From: Mesorhizobium alhagi CCNWXJ12-2
GTDB taxonomy: Bacteria; Pseudomonadota; Alphaproteobacteria; Rhizobiales; Rhizobiaceae
Reading direction: 5' to 3'
Assembly (NCBI RefSeq): GCF_000236565.1
Contig: NZ_AHAM01000058.1
Coordinates: 1-64,000 of the forward strand
DNA: 64,000 nt
The notes below the pieces were generated by a model. The model was not told the origin of the DNA. It was given only the letters and a program-made list of their open reading frames with translations, and ran no database searches. Position 1 is the stretch's first letter, and each line of letters opens with the position of its first letter. This document shows, piece after piece, positions 12,714-24,190 of this stretch. A program made the position numbers and the translations under genes.

Positions 12714-13099
12714 GCCATCCCAAGCGCGGCCATGTAGAGATCGAGGATCGCCTCCTCCTCCTGCCGCTCGGCCTGGTCCTTCTTGCGAAGTTTGATGATG
12801 GTGCGGACCGCCTTCACGTCAAATCCGGTTCCCTTCAACTCCTGGAAGATCTCGCGGATATCCTCGGCGATCGTGGCCTTCTCCTCCTCGAGGCGCTCGA
12901 CGCGCTCGATGAAGGCGCGCAGTTGGCCGGCGGCCACGGTCTGATAGGTTTCCTCCCCGGTTTCCTTCTCGGTGAACATTTCCGTGGTGTTCGGATCCCT
13001 GTCGCTGTTCAAGACCTTGAGCGCGGCCTTGACCGTGCTCATCGGGATGTCGCCGGTGTCTTTGCCGCCGCTACGGATGCGGATCGTGGGCTCGCTCAT
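12710..13099 (-). CDS. Phage-encoded GapR-like nucleoid protein (DUF2312)
   Basis: 129 residues from the ATG at 13099, chosen for its GGAGG site at good spacing. A longer frame from 13135 has none. Residues about 56-128 match the GapR/DUF2312 family closely: [20 protein letters not shown], then [20 protein letters not shown], then [17 protein letters not shown]. GapR in Caulobacter binds overtwisted DNA ahead of replication and transcription forks and helps gyrase. The first about 55 residues, beginning [15 protein letters not shown], are an extra domain not found in the short cellular form. It lies immediately downstream of the replication initiator, overlapping it by four bases, which suggests a role in phage DNA replication. 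Confidence 0.85.
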
Positions 13100-13968
13100 G
13101 CCGGTCCTCCTTGTTGCTGGATGTGCTCCGGCCAACGGGTCTTCCGGAGAAATTTGCGTAAGCTGACCGCGCGCTCGACGGCGGCCGGCGTGAGGTCGCG
13201 GCGCTTTTTCAGGTCAGCGAGCCATGCGCTCCATTCGGGCCGGTCGGGGGTGATGATGAAATCGCCGTCCTTGTCGAAGGGAGGCGCGCCGTCGAGCTCG
13301 CGGAACTGCTTGAGGCGAAGGTAGGGGAGCATGTGGGCAGGTTTGCCGCGCAGCGCCCTGAGGCGGCAGAAGGCCTCGGCGCACAGCGATGCTGTCGCCT
13401 GCTCGTCGGGTGTCAGGCGATCGAACACTGTCTCGGCCGCGGCGCGGCTGTCGGGAAGCTGGCTCTGCGGCCATCCTTTCCACAATATCTTGAAAGCCCC
13501 CCCAACCTCCGGGCGCGCTTGCGCGCTAGGTGGATTGGTGTTGGAAGATACTGGATTGGTAGTAGGAACGTCGTTCCGGACCTTTCGGAAAGAGGTTCCG
13601 GACCTTTCGGAAAGAGCTTCCGCACCTTCTGGAAAAGGACCGGAACCACGTTCCGCACCTTTTTCTACATCTTGTGCCTCTGGCCATGCGGCCTGGTATT
13701 CGTGATTGCGCCATTTCTGGCCCCGGAAACCGTGTTCAGTGCGCTTGATCCAACCGGCGGTTTCCGCAATTTCAAGGTGCGTGCGGACGCTGCGATCGGT
13801 GAGGCCGGTTGCGCTCGCCAAATCCTCTTGCGTTGGGTAACAGCCGCCACCGAGATCGTTCATGAAACAGGAAACCGTCAGTAGGAGATGCCTAGTCGTC
13901 GGTGGCAAGTCCGACCTGATGATGCGGTGACGCCATGACCACGCCCGGCTGATACCTGTCTCACTCAT
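13096..13968 (-). CDS. Phage replication initiator, helix-turn-helix (lambda O-like layout)
   Basis: 290 residues. An N-terminal winged-helix region at about 25-75 ([20 protein letters not shown]) is of the type found in phage replication proteins. Residues about 95-155 are low-complexity and encoded by iteron-like DNA repeats (13573-13668). The C-terminal part (about 160-290) is helical. This resembles lambda O, whose gene contains the origin it binds. It would open the origin and recruit host helicase, with loader and helicase coming from the host because none is visible here. The family assignment of the C-terminal part is uncertain. Confidence 0.7.
13573..13668. repeat. Iteron cluster inside replication gene, candidate phage origin
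   Basis: Repeats with a core of TTCCGGACCTTTCGGAA start at 13573, 13595 and 13617, an exact 22-bp period, with the first two identical over 21 bp and the third diverged. A fourth partial copy starts at 13650. Each carries short inverted arms TTCCG and CGGAA. A more AT-rich tract follows on the left (13540-13572). Iterons nested in the initiator gene, next to an AT-rich tract, are the arrangement of the lambda origin. Confidence 0.65.
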
Positions 13969-14339
13969 GCGTGCCTCATCCGGCGATTGAACCGGCTCTG
14001 GCGGGTGCGGTACTCCTTATCGGTGCGGACCTGCATGCGGTGGTTTGACTTCCTGCGCGGCGAGCAGATCGTGGCGACGATGCCGGCGTGGATGACGAGC
14101 CGCATGCGTGGCGTGTTGACGTTGGTGAGCCCAGCGAGGGCTGCGGCAAGCACGGCCGGCGTCAGGATGTCGGCGCGAACCTTTTCCATCGTCGTGCCGG
14201 CGGCCGCGCAATGCGCCTTGGCGACGGCGCGGGGGTTCATGGCGTCGTCGCAGGCGATCTCAACGCCGAGGATGCGCTGCACGTAGCGCGTGACGGCGTG
14301 ATAGCTCACGCGGTGTGCGTGCTCTGCTATCGCGTCCAT
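13965..14339 (-). CDS. Phage early protein of unknown function (124 aa)
   Basis: 124 residues, basic. The middle (LTPAVLAAALAGLTNVNTPR) is a hydrophobic-helical stretch and the C-terminus is arginine-rich (SPRRKSNHRMQVRTDKEYR) as in nucleic-acid-binding proteins. It overlaps the replication gene by four bases and the 46-aa gene by 13. No family is recognised. Its place between the Cro-like gene and the initiator suggests an early function. Confidence 0.55.
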   Translation of the reverse strand: MDAIAEHAHRVSYHAVTRYVQRILGVEIACDDAMNPRAVAKAHCAAAGTTMEKVRADILTPAVLAAALAGLTNVNTPRMRLVIHAGIVATICSPRRKSNHRMQVRTDKEYRTRQSRFNRRMRHA

Positions 14340-14467
14340 CGGCCCCCTGGCAGCCTCCCGTACGGCTTGTGACCCTCGATCTCCTGCCGGGCTTTCCAGT
14401 CGACCAACTCGGCGATGATGTCGGCGACGGTGCGGACTGGACGCGAATCGTCAGGCTGCTGCGTCAT
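14327..14467 (-). CDS. Small phage early protein (46 aa)
   Basis: Frame from ATG 14467 to TAG at 14327. It begins MTQQPDDSRPVRTVADIIAE and is overlapped by the ends of both neighbours (17 and 13 bases). Continuity of the coupled operon supports it. No family is recognised. Confidence 0.5.
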   Translation of the reverse strand: MTQQPDDSRPVRTVADIIAELVDWKARQEIEGHKPYGRLPGGRWTR

Positions 14468-14693
14468 GGGCGGCCTCCTCGACCATCCCCCACACCGAGG
14501 CGGGGGCTTCGCAACCCAGCGCAGCGAGATCGGCTGTCATGGCGAGGTAGTATTTCGGCGGGATTTCGCCGCGGTCGCGCCACGCCCATACGGCCTGCGG
14601 TGTTTTCAGGCCGTAGCGGGTTGCCAACGCAGAATTTCCGCCGAGATGGTCAATGACCTCATCGACGGTAGTAAGGCTTTTGGTGGGTGACAC
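14451..14693 (-). CDS. Cro-like regulator, first gene of left operon
   Basis: 80 residues from a GTG at 14693. The segment TTVDEVIDHLGGNSALATRY, then GLKTPQAVWAWRDRGEIPPK, is the helix-turn-helix pattern of small Cro-like phage proteins that bind near a repressor operator. It is the first gene read from the left early promoter and is divergent from the C1-type repressor, the classical arrangement for a lytic switch. It probably binds the 17-bp operators described at 14733 and 14758. Partner specificity is inferred from position. Confidence 0.7.
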   Translation of the reverse strand: MSPTKSLTTVDEVIDHLGGNSALATRYGLKTPQAVWAWRDRGEIPPKYYLAMTADLAALGCEAPASVWGMVEEAAHDAAA

Positions 14694-14726
14694 TTCGCAA
14701 CCATCCTCATTGGACGTTGGTTGCGG

Positions 14727-14755
14727 ACGTTAATCAACAATTCATTGATCTGCAA
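14727..14755 (-). promoter_or_regulatory. Left early promoter (minus strand) with nested operator
   Basis: On the minus strand TTGCAG (14755-14750) and TAACGT (14732-14727) are separated by exactly 17 bases, and the whole spacer (14733-14749) is the dyad ATCAACAATTCATTGAT. It would drive the Cro-like gene at 14693. Binding of repressor in the spacer would block RNA polymerase directly. Confidence 0.6.
14733..14749. promoter_or_regulatory. Phage operator, 17-bp site (left)
   Basis: The 17-bp sequence ATCAACAATTCATTGAT has ATCAA/TTGAT inverted arms. An identical copy lies at 15415-15431, where it occupies the corresponding position in the right promoter. Confidence 0.7.
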
Positions 14756-14757
14756 CC

Positions 14758-14774
14758 ATCAATAAGTTGGTGAT
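14758..14774. promoter_or_regulatory. Phage operator, second 17-bp site
   Basis: ATCAATAAGTTGGTGAT matches the reverse complement of the main operator at 14 of 17 positions. It lies between the left promoter and the repressor start, where it could autoregulate the repressor. Confidence 0.55.
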
Positions 14775-14808
14775 GGCAATTGCCTTTGAGTTGTAAGATA
14801 TTGTTGAA

Positions 14809-15117
14809 ATGGACAGGGGGCTTCCAGATACCAGCAAAGAATCGATCGGCCAGCGCTTGGCGCGGGTGCGCGAAGCGCTGGGCTGGAACCAATCCACGCT
14901 GGCAACTTCGCTCGGGATGTCGACCCAGCGATGGAACAACTACGAGAAGGGCAAGACCCTGCCTCCGCCCGACGTGCTCGCAAAATTCTGGCAGACTACC
15001 GGAGCGACGTCCGACTACATCCTGTTCGGGCGCCGCGACGGTATGTCCGTTGAGCTGATAAAGAAGTTGGACGCGCAGCAGCGCGCCCAGCGTGGCTCTG
15101 GCTCTATCGCTGGATAG
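14809..15117 (+). CDS. C1-type phage repressor (HTH_3), possibly leaderless
   Basis: 102 residues. The helix-turn-helix SIGQRLARVREALGWNQSTL, then ATSLGMSTQRWNNYEKGKTL, is a clear XRE/HTH_3 domain at about 12-65. The remaining C-terminal segment is too short to be a LexA-type peptidase, so induction would need another signal. The repressor maintains lysogeny by silencing both early promoters. The start ATG has no ribosome site, and a -10-like TAAGAT (14794-14799) places transcription almost at the ATG, as for lambda cI from PRM. The gene converges with a minus-strand 66-aa gene. Confidence 0.75.
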   Translation: MDRGLPDTSKESIGQRLARVREALGWNQSTLATSLGMSTQRWNNYEKGKTLPPPDVLAKFWQTTGATSDYILFGRRDGMSVELIKKLDAQQRAQRGSGSIAG

Positions 15118-15304
15118 AAACGACCTTCTTTTGAAGACTATGGCCGTCCTCCTCATCCCTCTTCGGGGTCAGGAAGTCGTCGAGCAGCTCGCTCATGTAG
15201 CGCAGCACGATCCTCGCATCGGCCGCCTTTTCCGGTAACTGCGTAGCGATTTGCATCGCCTGGCGACGTAGCCACGCGTCTCGTCCACGTTCTTCCTCAG
15301 TCAT
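15104..15304 (-). CDS. Small phage protein opposite the repressor (66 aa)
   Basis: 66 residues from the ATG at 15304, with TTG at 15322 as a longer alternative. The protein begins MTEEERGRDAWLRRQAMQIA and continues acidic and helical to LRYMSELLDDFLTPKRDEE. It converges on the repressor gene and overlaps its end by 14 bases, so antisense interplay is possible. It could be an antirepressor or a moron, but no family is recognised. Confidence 0.45.
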   Translation of the reverse strand: MTEEERGRDAWLRRQAMQIATQLPEKAADARIVLRYMSELLDDFLTPKRDEEDGHSLQKKVVSIQR

Positions 15305-15384
15305 TTCGCCCCAAAACTCCAACTACTGCCCGCGAATCGGCCCCGCATCAATCAAGAGCCATCATTCCTGTTGCCTGTCCTGAA

Positions 15385-15401
15385 ATCAATAGATTGTTGA
15401 A
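15385..15401. promoter_or_regulatory. Phage operator, third 17-bp site
   Basis: ATCAATAGATTGTTGAA matches the reverse complement of the main operator at 14 of 17 positions. It lies just upstream of the right promoter -35 box. Confidence 0.5.
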
Positions 15402-15407
15402 AAGTGT

Positions 15408-15436
15408 TTGACTGATCAACAATTCATTGATAGCTT
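15408..15436 (+). promoter_or_regulatory. Right early promoter with nested operator
   Basis: TTGACT at 15408-15413 and TAGCTT at 15431-15436 are separated by 17 bases. The identical operator ATCAACAATTCATTGAT (15415-15431) occupies the spacer, mirroring the left promoter. It would drive the right operon starting at 15498, giving a leader of about 55 bases. The -10 box is a weak match, so the exact start point is uncertain. Confidence 0.55.
15415..15431. promoter_or_regulatory. Phage operator, fourth 17-bp site (right)
   Basis: Exact copy of the 17-bp left operator at 14733, about 680 bp away, with the same inverted arms. Confidence 0.7.
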
Positions 15437-15497
15437 TATGCCATAGTCTGTTGCGCCCCGGGGTATTTTGTCGGCGCTCGGATCATGAGGGAACACG

Positions 15498-15626
15498 ATG
15501 GCGAGACACCTCTTCATTGCAGCATTCGCGGCCTGGGCGCTTGTCGGCTTGGTTCTTCCTGACGGCATGCTTGAGTGTCAGGAGCGGCAGAGCTTCGACA
15601 CCTGCCACACCGTCCTCCATCGGTAA
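15498..15626 (+). CDS. Small exported or membrane phage protein (42 aa)
   Basis: ATG at 15498 with GAGGGAA seven bases upstream. The product begins MARHLFIAAFAAWALVGLVL: a basic start followed by a hydrophobic helix, then LECQERQSFDTCHTVLHR with two cysteines that could form a disulfide outside the membrane. It is the first gene of the right operon. It could act on the host envelope, for example in superinfection exclusion, but no evidence beyond topology is available. Confidence 0.6.
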   Translation: MARHLFIAAFAAWALVGLVLPDGMLECQERQSFDTCHTVLHR

Positions 15627-15640
15627 CGGGAGTTTGCACG

Positions 15641-16039
15641 GTGACACACCCGCTTCAACCGAAAGTTATTACATCAAATTGTAGTGATCGCGTTGCAACC
15701 GAGCGTCGCGGCCCGGATCGGCCGTTTTCGTCGAAGAATTTTCAACAGGCGGACGCTGCGGAAGGCAATGTTTCCACGCTATCCACAGCCTGCGCCATGT
15801 GGTCGCAGTGGCACCTTGATTGCCCTCCCGCTGGCACAACCGGCGATATCGCCCTTGACAAGCGACTTGCCGACGCTTTCCGCGCGCTGATCGCGCGTCC
15901 CGATCTCCCCTCCCGGCTGACCTGGCTAGAGGGTGAAGTGTTTCTCACCGACCATTTCCCGAACCCCAACGCGCCGGCTGACCGCTACCGCGCGACGCTC
16001 ATCCGTTGGTGGCTCGATCTCCATGGGGAGGCGATCTGA
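15641..16039 (+). CDS. Phage early protein of unknown function (132 aa)
   Basis: 132 residues from a GTG at 15641, preferred because CGGGAG lies eight bases upstream and longer frames run through the previous gene. The C-terminal half (LTWLEGEVFLTDHFPNPNAP, then DRYRATLIRWWLDLHGE) is more conserved-looking, with hydrophobic and aromatic residues. The N-terminal half is polar. No family is recognised. The gene overlaps the next start by one base. Confidence 0.55.
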   Translation: MTHPLQPKVITSNCSDRVATERRGPDRPFSSKNFQQADAAEGNVSTLSTACAMWSQWHLDCPPAGTTGDIALDKRLADAFRALIARPDLPSRLTWLEGEVFLTDHFPNPNAPADRYRATLIRWWLDLHGEAI

Positions 16040-16263
16040 TGGCACGGACACCAAGGAAGGGCGGCCCCGCATTTCCCGTGGTCCCACCGGACGCGAAGAT
16101 CCAGGGCAGCTCCGGCATGACGTACCGGCAGTGGCTGGTTGGGCAGGCGATCGCCGGTTGCGCCCACAGTGGCGGCAGCACGTCGCAGTGCGAGCATATG
16201 GCGGCCAACGCCCACCGGATCGCCGACGCCGTGATCGCCGAAGGCGAAAAGGTGCATCCATGA
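16039..16263 (+). CDS. Small phage protein (74 aa)
   Basis: ATG at 16039 shares one base with the upstream stop and has GGAGG eight bases before it. The product has a proline/glycine-rich start and then a helix with YRQWLVGQAIAGCAHSGGST and SQCEHMAANAHRIADAVIAE. The pattern of histidines and cysteines (CAHS, CEHM) could bind metal, but the spacing is not a known motif. It overlaps the next gene by four bases (ATGA). Confidence 0.55.
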   Translation: MARTPRKGGPAFPVVPPDAKIQGSSGMTYRQWLVGQAIAGCAHSGGSTSQCEHMAANAHRIADAVIAEGEKVHP

Positions 16264-16562
16264 TTTGGGCCGCCGGCGCTGCCGTCATCGTATTTATTCT
16301 GGTGCCAGACGGAGCCGTCGTCGCCTTGGCGTGGGCGTTCACGCGCCAGGCGCACCCCTTCATGGCCAACTGCAGCCACATCGTCGTTGTCGGCCGCCTC
16401 AAATGGATCCCCGGCAGCGAGCACACCGGCATGGAGAGCGTCGCCTGGTACCGCTTCCACGCGCAGCACGTCGACGGCCCCCGCCTCATTCCGGCCCGGC
16501 CCGAAAAGGCCAGCCACGTAGAGCCAGACGATCAACCCAACGCTGAAAGGACACTCGCATGA
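16260..16562 (+). CDS. Phage membrane protein (100 aa)
   Basis: ATG at 16260 overlaps the upstream stop as ATGA. The first about 33 residues (MIWAAGAAVIVFILVPDGAV, then VALAWAFT) are strongly hydrophobic and should form a transmembrane or signal-anchor helix. The following soluble segment (KWIPGSEHTGMESVAWYRFH) is polar and probably faces one side. Together with the 42-aa protein upstream it gives the right operon an envelope-directed start. No family is recognised. Confidence 0.55.
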   Translation: MIWAAGAAVIVFILVPDGAVVALAWAFTRQAHPFMANCSHIVVVGRLKWIPGSEHTGMESVAWYRFHAQHVDGPRLIPARPEKASHVEPDDQPNAERTLA

Positions 16563-18352
16563 CGCAGATCCTGGTACCGCTCGATCAACTCGACTTCGGG
16601 CACAACGCCAACCCGCCGATCAACGCCCGCAAGACCGGCCGCCTGGTCGAGATCGAGGCGCTTGCCGCTTCCATGACCGCGCACGGCCATCGTGTGGCCC
16701 TCGACGTCCAGTCGATCGACGGCAAGTGGTATGTCGGCGACGGCAACCGCCGGCTGGCGGCCTTGCGGCTTCGTGCCGAGCGCGGCGAGATCGCGCCCGA
16801 CGAGCCGATCAAGTGTGACGACAACTCCGAGAGCGACAGCAACGCCGCCGGCGACGAGCTTTCAGTGGCGCTGAACATCATGCGCGAGCCGCTGCACGAA
16901 GCCGACCAGTACGAAGTGTTCCGCGATATGGCCGAGCGCGGACTTGGTGAGGAGCAGATCGCCGCAAGGTTCGGCATCGAGCCCATCCGCGTTCGCCGCA
17001 AACTGGCGATCGGCCGGCTTGCGCCCTGCATCCTCGAGGCGTGGCGCAACGGCACGTTCGATAAGTATCACGGCGGCGCCGACACTGTGCGCGCCTTCAC
17101 GCTCGCCCCGTCGATCGAGGCGCAGGAACGGGTGTTCGAGAAGCTGCTCAAAGACGGCCAGCTCTGGTCGCACACGATCCGCAACGAGTTCGGCGCGAAC
17201 GGCAACGGGACCGCAAGCAAATGGCTCAAGATCATTGGCGTTGATGCCTATACCGCTGCCGGCGGCGGCATCGTCGAGGATCTGTTCGGCGACCACCACG
17301 TCATTCAGGATCCGGCGCTCGCCGAGCGCTTGGGCAACGAGCACGTCGAAAAGGTGATGCAGGACCTGCTCGAGCAGGGCTGGTCATGGGTGGCAAGGTC
17401 CGAGGACTGCCCCAACAGCTACTCCTGGGAGAGACTGACGCCCGGCAAGGGCCAGCCGACCAAGGAGGAGAAGCGGCGCATCAAGGCGCTTGAGCACATC
17501 CTCAACAAGCCCGGCGGCTCGATCGGCGAGGAAGCCGAGGAGGTCGATGCCGAGTTGGAGAAGCTCGAGGCGGAGATCGAAGCGCGCGCATGGAACGCCG
17601 ACCAGATGGCGATATCGGGTGTCAAGCTCGAGGTAACCAACTGGCGCGGTATCGAACTCACCTATGGCCTGGTGAAGCCACAGGCTTCGCGGAAGGCGGC
17701 CAACGACGGCAAGCCGGCCGAGAAGGCCGCACCCACCGTCTCCGCTGCGTTGACCTTCCGGCTTTCCCAGCAGGCTACGCTGGCAACCCGGGCCGCACTG
17801 GCCGAGGAGCCCCGCGTCGGATTCGTCGCGCTGCTGGCCGGCTTTCTGGCTGGCAGCGGGCGTTCACCGGTCAAGGTGGTGCAGAATGGATTTGGCGCGG
17901 TCGACCGCTACGGCGTCCGCAACGATGACGGCGATAGGGAAAGCTTTGCCGACGCCTTCCTGCGGCTGTCGTCGATGAAGGATGTCGATCTGTTCCGCAT
18001 CGCCGCCGGCATCGCCGCCCAGGCGATCGACATGCAGGGCCACTCGCCATTCACCAAGGGCGCTGACGTGCTGGCCGCGTCTATCACACCCGAGCGTATC
18101 ACGGCGCGCCTGGCCGAGCAGTTCGACGCCAAGGATTATTTCAGCGGTGTGGCCAAGCCGCTGGTGCTGCAGGCGATCGCGGAGGCCGTCAACGAGGACG
18201 AGGCCCGCAAGGCCGGCGCTTCGCTCAAGAAGGATGAGCTGGTCGACTTCGCCATCAAGAACGTGGTGCCCACCGGCTGGTTGCCGCCGCTGCTGCGCAC
18301 CGCCGCCTATGCCGGCCCGGCCGCCGTCCAGCTTGCGGAGGCGGCGGAATGA
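16559..18352 (+). CDS. ParB/Spo0J-like phage protein
   Basis: 597 residues. The N-terminal ParB-type domain is visible at about 5-130: VPLDQLDFGHNANPPINARK, then the box YVGDGNRRLAALRLRAERG (about 58-76). A helix-turn-helix-like region (GLGEEQIAARFGIEPIRVRR) is at about 130-150. The C-terminal half is long, helical and unlike plasmid ParB. ParB-like proteins bind CTP and DNA, but phage versions also act as nucleases or regulators. No ParA gene is visible, so partitioning is not implied. Confidence 0.75.
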   Translation: MTQILVPLDQLDFGHNANPPINARKTGRLVEIEALAASMTAHGHRVALDVQSIDGKWYVGDGNRRLAALRLRAERGEIAPDEPIKCDDNSESDSNAAGDELSVALNIMREPLHEADQYEVFRDMAERGLGEEQIAARFGIEPIRVRRKLAIGRLAPCILEAWRNGTFDKYHGGADTVRAFTLAPSIEAQERVFEKLLKDGQLWSHTIRNEFGANGNGTASKWLKIIGVDAYTAAGGGIVEDLFGDHHVIQDPALAERLGNEHVEKVMQDLLEQGWSWVARSEDCPNSYSWERLTPGKGQPTKEEKRRIKALEHILNKPGGSIGEEAEEVDAELEKLEAEIEARAWNADQMAISGVKLEVTNWRGIELTYGLVKPQASRKAANDGKPAEKAAPTVSAALTFRLSQQATLATRAALAEEPRVGFVALLAGFLAGSGRSPVKVVQNGFGAVDRYGVRNDDGDRESFADAFLRLSSMKDVDLFRIAAGIAAQAIDMQGHSPFTKGADVLAASITPERITARLAEQFDAKDYFSGVAKPLVLQAIAEAVNEDEARKAGASLKKDELVDFAIKNVVPTGWLPPLLRTAAYAGPAAVQLAEAAE

Positions 18353-19761: not shown

Positions 19762-20216
19762 CAGCGGCGGCGGCCTACATGGAAAATCCCGACGAGATCA
19801 TGACCCTGCGCGAGGCGCTGGAGCGGTTTTTTCCGGCCGCCTATGCCAAGGGCCAAGTTACCCCGGCGACGTTGAGGGCGGAGGCCAGGCGTGGCAAGCT
19901 GACTGTCATGCGGATAGGGCGGTCCGATTGGGTCACCGCCGCCGCCATGAGGGAGATGATGAACAAATGCCGCGTCCCGCAAAAGGAGCCCGCCTCGAAC
20001 TCCGAACAGAACGGATCAAAGACCGATCCGGCAAGCTCGTCCGGATCGAGAAGACATGGATCATCCGCGACCGAGGAGCGTTTTTCCGACGCACAGGCTG
20101 CGGCGAGCTCGATAGCGGAGGAGCTGAAAAAGCGCTCAACGACTATCTCTCCGAAAAATTCCAACCAGCCAGCCGGGAAAGTGATCTCAATCGCCTCCCG
20201 GTCGCCGAAGTCCTGA
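19758..20216 (+). CDS. Excisionase-like DNA-binding protein overlapping integrase
   Basis: 152 residues. Residues about 15-70 (MTLREALERFFPAAYAKGQV, then TPATLRAEARRGKLTVMRIG) look like a MerR/excisionase winged helix, with RSDWVTAAAMREMMNKCRV after it. The C-terminal about 80 residues are serine/threonine/lysine-rich and low complexity. They are encoded in a second frame over the first 250 bases of the integrase. An excisionase directly before the integrase, coupled to it, is the usual recombination directionality arrangement. It starts by overlapping the HNH stop. Confidence 0.65.
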   Translation: MTAAAAYMENPDEIMTLREALERFFPAAYAKGQVTPATLRAEARRGKLTVMRIGRSDWVTAAAMREMMNKCRVPQKEPASNSEQNGSKTDPASSSGSRRHGSSATEERFSDAQAAASSIAEELKKRSTTISPKNSNQPAGKVISIASRSPKS

Positions 20217-21178
20217 CCGCCTATGGCCGCGAATATGCGCCTCACAAGAAGTCGGCCGAGCGAAGCGGCTACGCGATCGCGGCGTTGGTACCTTGGTGGG
20301 GAACCAAGACGCTCGCGGACGTGCGCGGCAAGACGTGCCGCGACTACGCGGCCCACCGCCGGCGCGGTGGCGTCGGCGACGGTACGATTCGGCGCGAACT
20401 GGCCGAACTGTCCAAGGCCATCAACCACTGGCACGCCGAGCATGGTCCGCTCGCTTCGGTGCCCATCGTCACCATGCCCGATGCCGCGCCGCCCAAGGAG
20501 CGCTGGCTTACCCGATCGGAGGCCGCCATGCTCTTAGCTGGCGCGCTGGGCTGGTATCGCGAGTTCTGGTCGGACGTGGCGACGCGGAAGGTTCATTGCC
20601 GCTGGCGCCGCAATCCGTTCCAGATCAACCGCCACCTGGCCCGCTTCATCCTGCTCGGCCTCGCCACGGGCTCGAGGCGTGGCTCGATGTTCCACGTGAA
20701 GTGGATGGCGAACACCAGCGGCGGCTGGATAGATCTCGATCGAGGCGTGATGCACAGGCGCGGCGAGGGCGTCGGCGAGACGAACAAGCGGCAACCGCCC
20801 GTGCGCCTCGGCAGGCGCATCATGGCCCACGCCACGCGCTGGAAGCGCCTCGACGACGCGGCGCGCGCCGACGCGGCCGAGCAGGCCGGCGAGCCGGTGG
20901 CGCTGTTTCTCAACGTGGTGCACTGGATGGGCCGCGGCGTCTCGTCCGTCCGCACATCATGGGCGAATGCCGTCGACTACGCCTGGCTCGAGCCGCGATC
21001 CACGCGCAAAGCCAAGGTCACGCCGCACGTGATGCGTCACACCCGCGCGACCTGGTTGATGTCGAGCGGCATCGAGATTTGGGAGGCCGCCGGCTCGGTC
21101 GGCATGTCGGCCAAGACGCTCGAGAAGGTGTACGGCCACCACCATCCCGATTTCCAGAAGAAGGCAGCGGAGGTTTGA
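19967..21178 (+). CDS. int: Tyrosine integrase
   Basis: 403 residues from the ATG at 19967, chosen because GGGAG sits upstream and longer starts overlap more of the excisionase. The catalytic box is recognisable: the first arginine in TGSRRGSMFHVKW at about 236, HVMRHTRATW at about 353-362 with the HxxR pair, and the nucleophile tyrosine in EKVYGHHHPDF at about 388. An N-terminal arm- and core-binding half precedes it. It should recombine the phage att site with the tRNA-Val gene 1.3 kb downstream. Confidence 0.88.
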   Translation: MPRPAKGARLELRTERIKDRSGKLVRIEKTWIIRDRGAFFRRTGCGELDSGGAEKALNDYLSEKFQPASRESDLNRLPVAEVLTAYGREYAPHKKSAERSGYAIAALVPWWGTKTLADVRGKTCRDYAAHRRRGGVGDGTIRRELAELSKAINHWHAEHGPLASVPIVTMPDAAPPKERWLTRSEAAMLLAGALGWYREFWSDVATRKVHCRWRRNPFQINRHLARFILLGLATGSRRGSMFHVKWMANTSGGWIDLDRGVMHRRGEGVGETNKRQPPVRLGRRIMAHATRWKRLDDAARADAAEQAGEPVALFLNVVHWMGRGVSSVRTSWANAVDYAWLEPRSTRKAKVTPHVMRHTRATWLMSSGIEIWEAAGSVGMSAKTLEKVYGHHHPDFQKKAAEV

Positions 21179-22464: not shown

Positions 22465-22539
22465 TGGTGGGCGTGGCAAGGATTGAACTTGCGACCCCTG
22501 CAATGTCAATGCAGTGCTCTCCCGCTGAGCTACACGCCC
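22465..22539 (-). tRNA. tRNA-Val (anticodon GAC), prophage attachment site
   Basis: A complete 75-nt cloverleaf on the minus strand: acceptor GGGCGTG pairs with CACGCCC, the anticodon arm has loop TTGACAT with anticodon GAC, the T-arm contains GTTCAATCC, and CCA is encoded. It reads GUC/GUU valine codons. The 3' end (22465) faces the prophage, so the att core probably lies within the 3' half of the gene, and the gene stays intact after integration. The other att copy is outside the window. Confidence 0.93.
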
Positions 22540-24087: not shown

Positions 24088-24104
24088 CCGGCGCATCCGC
24101 GGTC

Positions 24105-24190
24105 AAAAAAAACCGCGTTGTTCGCACAACGCGGTCGAAGTCTAGGGAGGAAACGCCCAAGGAGGGCATAGACAGGAGAACCTGTCCGAC
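24105..24190 (-). ncRNA. suhB/alpha-r14-like small RNA
   Basis: On the minus strand TTGACA (24222-24217) and a -10-like TAAGTT (24200-24195) precede a transcript of about 86 nt. It has a first hairpin (GACAGG/CCTGTC around TTCT), a second hairpin whose loop carries TCCTT between GCCC and GGGC, an unpaired TTTCCTCCCTAG, and a 10-bp terminator stem (24112-24135) followed by eight T. Anti-Shine-Dalgarno pyrimidine motifs in loops are the mark of the rhizobial alpha-r14 group, and related Rfam suhB RNAs are named for this location beside an inositol-monophosphatase-family gene. Confidence 0.75.

Follow-up and report, generated by a model that had tools for sequence, protein, structure and literature searches.

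A probable prophage immunity region of Mesorhizobium alhagi CCNWXJ12-2 with matched operator-like sites on both sides of a short repressor gene

Results

Genes of the module and their prophage surroundings

The window, the whole 64,000-nucleotide stretch that was analysed, carries a module of three small genes, here called cro, rep, and the small gene, together with a set of 17-bp operator-like sites (Table 1). The 80-aa product of cro gave Pfam matches to YdaS_toxin (1.1e-06, 28.7 bits vs a curated cut-off of 30) and to P22_Cro (0.00097, 19.3 bits vs 30.2), both below threshold. The 102-aa product of rep matched HTH_31 (9.5e-12) and HTH_3 (1.4e-07) in Pfam and transcriptional regulators in PHROG. 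Its Pfam matches were to HTH families only, and no Peptidase_S24 match was detected. The initial annotation had placed a C1-type repressor in the middle of the switch: the position holds, but with a single HTH domain and no S24 domain the protein is not of the lambda CI type. Given this absence of S24, induction of the lambda type should not be assumed. Repressor length was 91-119 aa across the 18 loci described below.

Table 1. Predicted features of the module in the window
Feature	Position	Strand	Remarks
Cro/YdaS-like 80-aa protein	14451-14693	-	GTG start; first gene of left early operon; outside left site pair
Candidate leftward promoter toward cro	14755-14727	-	TTGCAG (14755-14750), 17-bp spacer = left site 1, TAACGT (14732-14727)
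Left operator site 1	14733-14749	+	ATCAACAATTCATTGAT, exact copy; predicted operator
Left operator site 2	14758-14774	-	14/17 match; predicted operator
Tentative third left half-site	14792-14808	+	TGTAAGATATTGTTGAA; directly 5' of repressor ATG
102-aa repressor	14809-15117	+	One HTH domain; between left and right sites
72-aa protein	15104-15322	-	TTG start as listed; convergent with repressor, tails overlap by 14 bp
Right inner operator site	15385-15401	-	14/17 match; predicted operator
Candidate rightward early promoter	15408-15436	+	TTGACT-17-TAGCTT; spacer = right outer site
Right outer operator site	15415-15431	+	ATCAACAATTCATTGAT, exact copy; predicted operator

For the 72-aa protein of the window, neither a Pfam nor a PHROG match was detected; in a scan of 16 relatives, one or two members were matched by single PHROG families of unknown function, with a best E-value of 0.0027. 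The protein was predicted to form a two-helix hairpin (residues 9-26 and 33-51), with a mean pLDDT of 78.3 and a pTM of 0.51 for the whole model and a mean pLDDT above 90 for residues 11-50. Sequence search of PDB returned no credible relative, the five matches at 0.02-0.36 being mostly designed proteins, and fold search against the viral library gave 0 matches at E<=0.001. We conjecture that the 72-aa protein is a modulator of the repressor. In two Bradyrhizobium phages (L053, 5218-5805; L054, 5173-5808), the small-protein domain was found fused to a DUF4118-like hydrophobic segment, with E-values of 5.6e-05 (under the cut-off) in one and 1e-09 (over the cut-off) in the other; this is probably a membrane segment.

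On the left of the switch, all on the minus strand, a replication initiator-like gene lies downstream of cro, followed by terminase, portal, and head genes. These last are long open reading frames whose family matches are full-length, and the head genes reach the left edge of the contig. On the right are a ParB-like gene, an HNH gene, a tyrosine-recombinase-like frame, and then tRNA-Val at 22465. The ParB-like protein of 597 aa (16559-18352; phrog_7783) has two more relatives in its own genome, and 7 of 20 related genomes contain others; no module was detected in the 4-kb stretches examined for these relatives. The open frame beside tRNA-Val (19928-21178) carries, as judged by eye, the tyrosine-recombinase residues R, HxxR, and H..Y. 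It gave no Pfam match at 1e-4, and its sequence and position suggest that it is probably a divergent integrase. Beyond tRNA-Val, an Rfam match to suhB/mmgR sRNA was observed at 24098-24174 on the minus strand.

Operator-like sites in the window

By scanning the 64-kb window at <=3 mismatches, the 17-mer was found at four places and none besides, against 0.06 expected, and none of 100 shuffled sequences reached four matches. In the whole 6.97-Mb assembly, exact copies were found only at 14733 and 15415, with seven more places at 3 mismatches on seven other contigs. The exact repeat reported in the initial annotation was confirmed by both scans, as were its two 14/17 matches by the mismatch scan, which located both on the minus strand. 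A matrix built from the four sites gave them scores of 20.4-23.7, the runner-up place in the window scoring 13.2. Chance repeats were ruled out by the match count relative to that expected, by the uniqueness within the assembly, and by the within-locus permutation result given below. The operator of the window is an odd palindrome, ATCAA-N7-TTGAT. Of the symmetrical four-site switch that had been proposed, the four sites remain and the symmetry is loose, the spacing of the pairs being 25 bp on the left and 30 bp on the right.

The tentative third left half-site is weak, ranking 51 of 63,984 with the window's own four-site matrix, and it may instead be just the -10 or leader of the repressor gene. 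Its position is conserved in locus L046, where the counterpart TGTAACATATTGTTTAA scored 15.8 by that locus's own matrix. The left offsets from the cro start were 41/66/100 in L046 vs 40/65/99 in the window, with L046 using its own bases and the third site weak in the window.

Relatives of the module

The first relative, L011, carries all three orthologs in the same order with 37-47% identity, that of the Cro-like ortholog being 47%. An identical repressor (100%) was found in IMG/VR contig 2513237351_000008, of which the flanking stretch looks the same; this contig probably derives from the genome of the window or from a very close one. Further loci were found in viral contigs and four genomes with the small protein as query. 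Matches to this protein were detected in 3 of 394 family genomes and 5 of 397 order genomes, both counts including its own genome and two family genomes, and, with a different profile (A4), in the own genome only among 385 class genomes. At E<=1e-12 the repressor was likewise detected in its own genome only among 3 genus and 394 family genomes. Against phage records, the 72-aa protein gave no match at 0.01, and the DNA of 13000-18000 matched three records with just 1-3% covered. The repressor matched 18 phage records; the two of these that were examined, Bradyrhizobium phages ppBeUSDA76-1 and ppBdUSDA122-1, both carry the module, in each case with the DUF4118-like fusion of the small-protein domain. 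Phage matches and relatives together suggest a rhizobium-like host.

The analysed set consisted of 18 loci, the window included. The order cro(-) rep(+) small(-) was observed in 16 of them; in L037 and L038, which entered no operator test, the repressor and the small gene are present and Cro was not detected. Convergence of rep and the small gene was common to all 18 loci, with overlap in 17 (by 4 bp in seven). L012 and L013 gave HTH matches without Cro or small-protein matches, L032 at a contig end showed no module and was dropped, and L029 was left out as a near-copy of L028. L028 and L049, near-duplicates of L027 and L039, were included in the 16-locus palindrome-pair and 14-locus promoter tests, and were left out of the half-site, covariation, 14-locus permutation, and 13-locus geometry counts. 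L035 was included in the matching tests, but in no promoter, spacing, or covariation count.

Left and right sites match within most loci

In each locus, a left region of 120 bp next to the cro start was compared with a right region of roughly 300 bp located upstream of the small gene. Palindromic pairs of width 17 scored 26.06 within loci vs 21.97 across loci (16 loci). After dropping the near-duplicates L028 and L049 and correcting the cro start of L053, own left/right pairs of the resulting 14 loci agreed at a mean of 15.00 of 17 positions vs 12.45 across loci, and the own-pair mean was reached by none of 20,000 permutations of these distinct loci. For 13 of the 14, no right region from another locus was a better fit to the left region than the locus's own. 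The exception was L035, in which the module genes are present and matched sites are absent. When palindrome quality was added, the same held for 11 of 14 loci (L031, L035, and L040 missed), still with 0 of 20,000 permutations. The palindrome term gave a gain of about 4 points for the odd widths 15 and 17 and about 1 for the even widths 16 and 18 (still p 0.002-0.003).

The operator sequence is phage-specific, as represented by TTCCAAACTATTTGGAA in L030, AGCCACCTTTGGTGGCG in L033, TTACAGTGAGACTGTAA in L051, ATCGAAAATTTTTCGAT in L050, and TTAAACAAATAGTTTAA in L046; in some loci, for instance L034, L040, and L054, the operators are alike. Position 5 of the half-site was A in all 13 loci counted. 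Since identical sites flank the repressor gene and the same layout recurs in relatives with phage-specific sequences, the arrangement looks like an on/off switch.

Promoters and geometry

The candidate rightward promoter agrees with the consensus at 8 of 12 positions, a score reached by 11% of flank shuffles. On the left, the best score nearby was 6/12, reached by 62% of flank shuffles. As such a score is common in shuffles, the left promoter is unsupported on the window alone, and its support comes from the family average. A strict consensus promoter/terminator scan of 14300-15800 returned 0 promoters. Among 13 distinct loci, the sequences around the spacer occupied by left site 1, read toward cro, gave a mean of 7.77/12 vs 5.83 for shuffled flanks, and those around the right outer site, read toward the right arm, 7.46/12 vs 5.69, with 0 of 1000 shuffles reaching either value. 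For four control combinations of site and orientation, 273, 608, 994, and 945 of 1000 shuffles reached the score. The 14-locus version gave 7.79 (left) and 7.50 (right) of 12 vs 5.84 and 5.68 after shuffling, with 0 of 300 each.

In 12 of 14 loci the start of left site 1 is 10-15 bp away from that of cro; in the other two, the window and L046, the distance is 40-41 bp. Of 13 distinct loci, 11 have a distance of 30-31 bp between the inner and outer right sites, L053 has 32 bp, and L033 has 21 bp; these spacings would be close to whole helical turns. The layout common to the family combines left sites that vary in number with a right pair spaced mostly 30-31 bp; it is not the symmetrical two-plus-two arrangement first proposed.

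Neither for the repressor gene (23 of 60 shuffles reached the score) nor for the small gene (42 of 60) was a full promoter above chance detected. Hexamers resembling a -10 box, located 4-11 nt 5' of the start, exceeded shuffles for cro (0 of 300) and rep (1 of 300) and did not for the small gene (246 of 300), all in 13 loci. Shine-Dalgarno runs were no different from shuffles for any of the three genes in the same number of loci; cro of the window carries GAGG. The -10-like hexamers hint that cro and repressor messages may be leaderless.

Which protein may bind the sites

In the search of PDB with the repressor family profile, matches to the 434 repressor (6.4e-09) and P22 C2 (1.2e-06) were obtained. 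Among 13 loci, similarity of the repressor recognition helix correlated with operator similarity (r 0.41, p 0.007), as did the remainder of the repressor (r 0.28, p 0.03) and the whole Cro (r 0.31, p 0.03); for the Cro helix, r was 0.22 (p 0.07). The top-ranked repressor columns, L51, A23, and T50, are outside the helix, with the helix residues Q40 and R41 next. Covariation of the repressor helix is thus a hint and not proof, because three columns outside the helix rank highest. Since the rest of the repressor and the whole Cro also track the operators and n is 13, the contributions of the repressor, of Cro, and of phage ancestry are confounded. Both proteins may share the sites.

Discussion

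Proposed function of the region

Very probably, the module serves a tailed prophage as its immunity (lysis-lysogeny) region, with the same layout as lambda OR-cI-OL and 16-3 OR-c-OL. Two operator-like regions flank the repressor and 72-aa genes, the left one at the promoter of the arm with cro, replication, and late genes, and the right one within that of the arm leading to the probable integrase. The claim that these are predicted operators of a repressor/Cro switch in two early promoters is backed by the comparison of relatives, both in the matching and in the spacer tests. The switch interpretation is likewise supported, but the unit also includes a third gene, the 72-aa gene convergent with rep, which was absent from the initial annotation.

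We propose that a dimer of the 102-aa repressor would bind each 17-bp site through its two half-sites. With the -35/-10 spacers at 14733 and 15415 filled, RNA polymerase would be blocked and the prophage would stay silent. With a separation of about three helical turns, the two right sites would lie on the same face of the DNA and probably hold two cooperative dimers. The repressor's promoter could be tuned through left site 2 and perhaps also through the half-site beside the repressor start codon. Once repression fails, the 80-aa Cro/YdaS-like protein would be produced and compete for the same sites. As the repressor has no S24 self-cleavage domain, its release probably needs another signal, for which the 72-aa protein would be the obvious candidate modulator. 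Taken together, the comparisons point to a switch that is real and probably works; its kind is known, and it apparently represents an undescribed variant with a strong comparative signature.

A further-reaching proposal is that the switch has three parts and is of an undescribed type: a short non-cleavable repressor would work together with a conserved convergent small protein, which would act as antirepressor or signal input in place of SOS self-cleavage and possibly sense the envelope; the family would also comprise about a dozen specificities on one scaffold. We regard this as rather unlikely.

It is improbable that the sites are mainly operators of the Cro/YdaS-like protein, or of both proteins equally, with the 102-aa protein acting elsewhere or as an antitoxin-like factor. 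Left site 1 is indeed at the cro promoter, 10-15 bp from the cro start in most loci (12 of 14), whole-Cro similarity tracks the operators, and in Pfam the 80-aa protein comes closest to a toxin family. The repressor helix, however, tracks the operators better than the Cro helix does (p 0.007 vs 0.07), and it is the 102-aa family that resembles 434 and P22 C2. Such a role of Cro is only partly a rival to the repressor/Cro switch, because in lambda CI and Cro bind the same OR sites (PMC4488713). We consider it very improbable that the locus is a relic without a working switch, whether as a toxin-antitoxin-like pair or as part of a dead prophage in which repeats are left over. The YdaS label of the 80-aa protein and the head genes running up to the left edge of the contig would fit a relic, but the neighbouring terminase, portal, and head genes are long and have full-length family matches. 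A dead or toxin-antitoxin locus was rejected, as the module and its site geometry are kept in other phages, including ppBeUSDA76-1 and ppBdUSDA122-1. There is a negligible probability that the repeats resemble each other only in composition, as promoter elements in AT-rich islands or as parts of a replication origin: they coincide with promoter spacers, but the match is within loci and not across, the palindrome term lifts the odd widths more than the even ones, and the inner right site, outside the promoter spacer, still lies mostly 30-31 bp away.

Implications of the predicted switch

The repressor/Cro switch as predicted here maps the regulators, candidate operators, and candidate promoters of a temperate phage group on whose switch no paper was found. 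Matching left and right regions phage by phage offers a route to unknown operators from sequence alone. With about a dozen distinct operators on one repressor scaffold, the recognition rules of HTH repressors become testable, and separate repressor/operator pairs could serve bacterial genetics. What signal induces these prophages becomes a concrete question, given the conserved convergent gene and a repressor without S24 domain.

Comparison with known systems

In lambda, 17-bp operators form two regions at two early promoters, with three sites in each. One arm of lambda contains cro and the replication genes and leads toward the late genes, and integrase is on the other arm. The region of the window is similar in the 17-bp sites, in their two regions at early promoters, and in the Cro-like second regulator; it differs in the short repressor, in the variable number of left sites, and in the two right sites, mostly 30-31 bp apart. 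The CI protein of lambda carries a C-terminal domain for cleavage and oligomerisation. Membership in the lambda CI-type S24 repressors was ruled out for the 102-aa protein by its length and its restriction to HTH families. The lambda rex genes sit between the repressor gene and an operator region, the place at which the 72-aa gene stands here, but in the opposite direction. The DNA-binding domains of 434 and P22 C2 belong to longer repressors, and the two systems differ from the window in operator length and sequence.

In immC of Rhizobium phage 16-3, as in the window, operator regions (OL1, OL2, OR1, and OR2) flank an HTH repressor gene. According to the annotation of NC_011103, c of 16-3 is flanked by a pair of operators to either side, with OL2 lying within the 17-bp -35/-10 spacer of PL; an operator within the early-promoter spacer is also the family average of the module. 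The 16-3 C protein differs in its 263 aa with an S24 domain, the module repressor having 102 aa without S24, and the 16-3 operators differ in being of 12-14 bp and ACAA-type. Similarity of C to the module repressor family was at the HTH level only (E 0.00046); membership in the 16-3 C family was ruled out by this and by the S24 domain in C. The small-protein and Cro profiles gave no match in 16-3 at E<=1 (50 of 60 kb scanned). The other strand of 16-3 OL2, ACAATTGATTGT (L057, 35629-35640), agrees at 10 of 12 positions with ACAATTCATTGA of the window operator; the palindrome centres differ, and the resemblance is probably due to chance.

For immB of the telomere phages PY54, N15, and phiKO2, the accessible part of the published account describes divergent cI and cro genes with operators between them, two further OL sites of N15 at another gene, and leaderless cI and cro mRNAs of PY54 (PMC4488713). 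These phages differ from the window in that OL is at a plasmid replication gene and in that a convergent small gene is not mentioned in that part of the account (PMC4488713). A likeness to the leaderless mRNAs of PY54 is hinted here by the -10-like hexamers near the start codons. In phiLM21-like Sinorhizobium prophages, operators identical to those of lambda or 16-3 were not found, according to the accessible part of PMC12429752. The putative Cro-like protein of phiLM21 (L058, 11273-11503) matched the module Cro profile (2.7e-08), and phiLM21 gave no match to the repressor or small-protein profiles. As far as titles and the beginnings of abstracts go, the subscription literature being mostly out of reach, no published account of a cro-rep-small module was found. 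The plan of the region is thus known from lambda and 16-3, and the combination of repressor, small protein, and geometry is apparently an undescribed variant of it.
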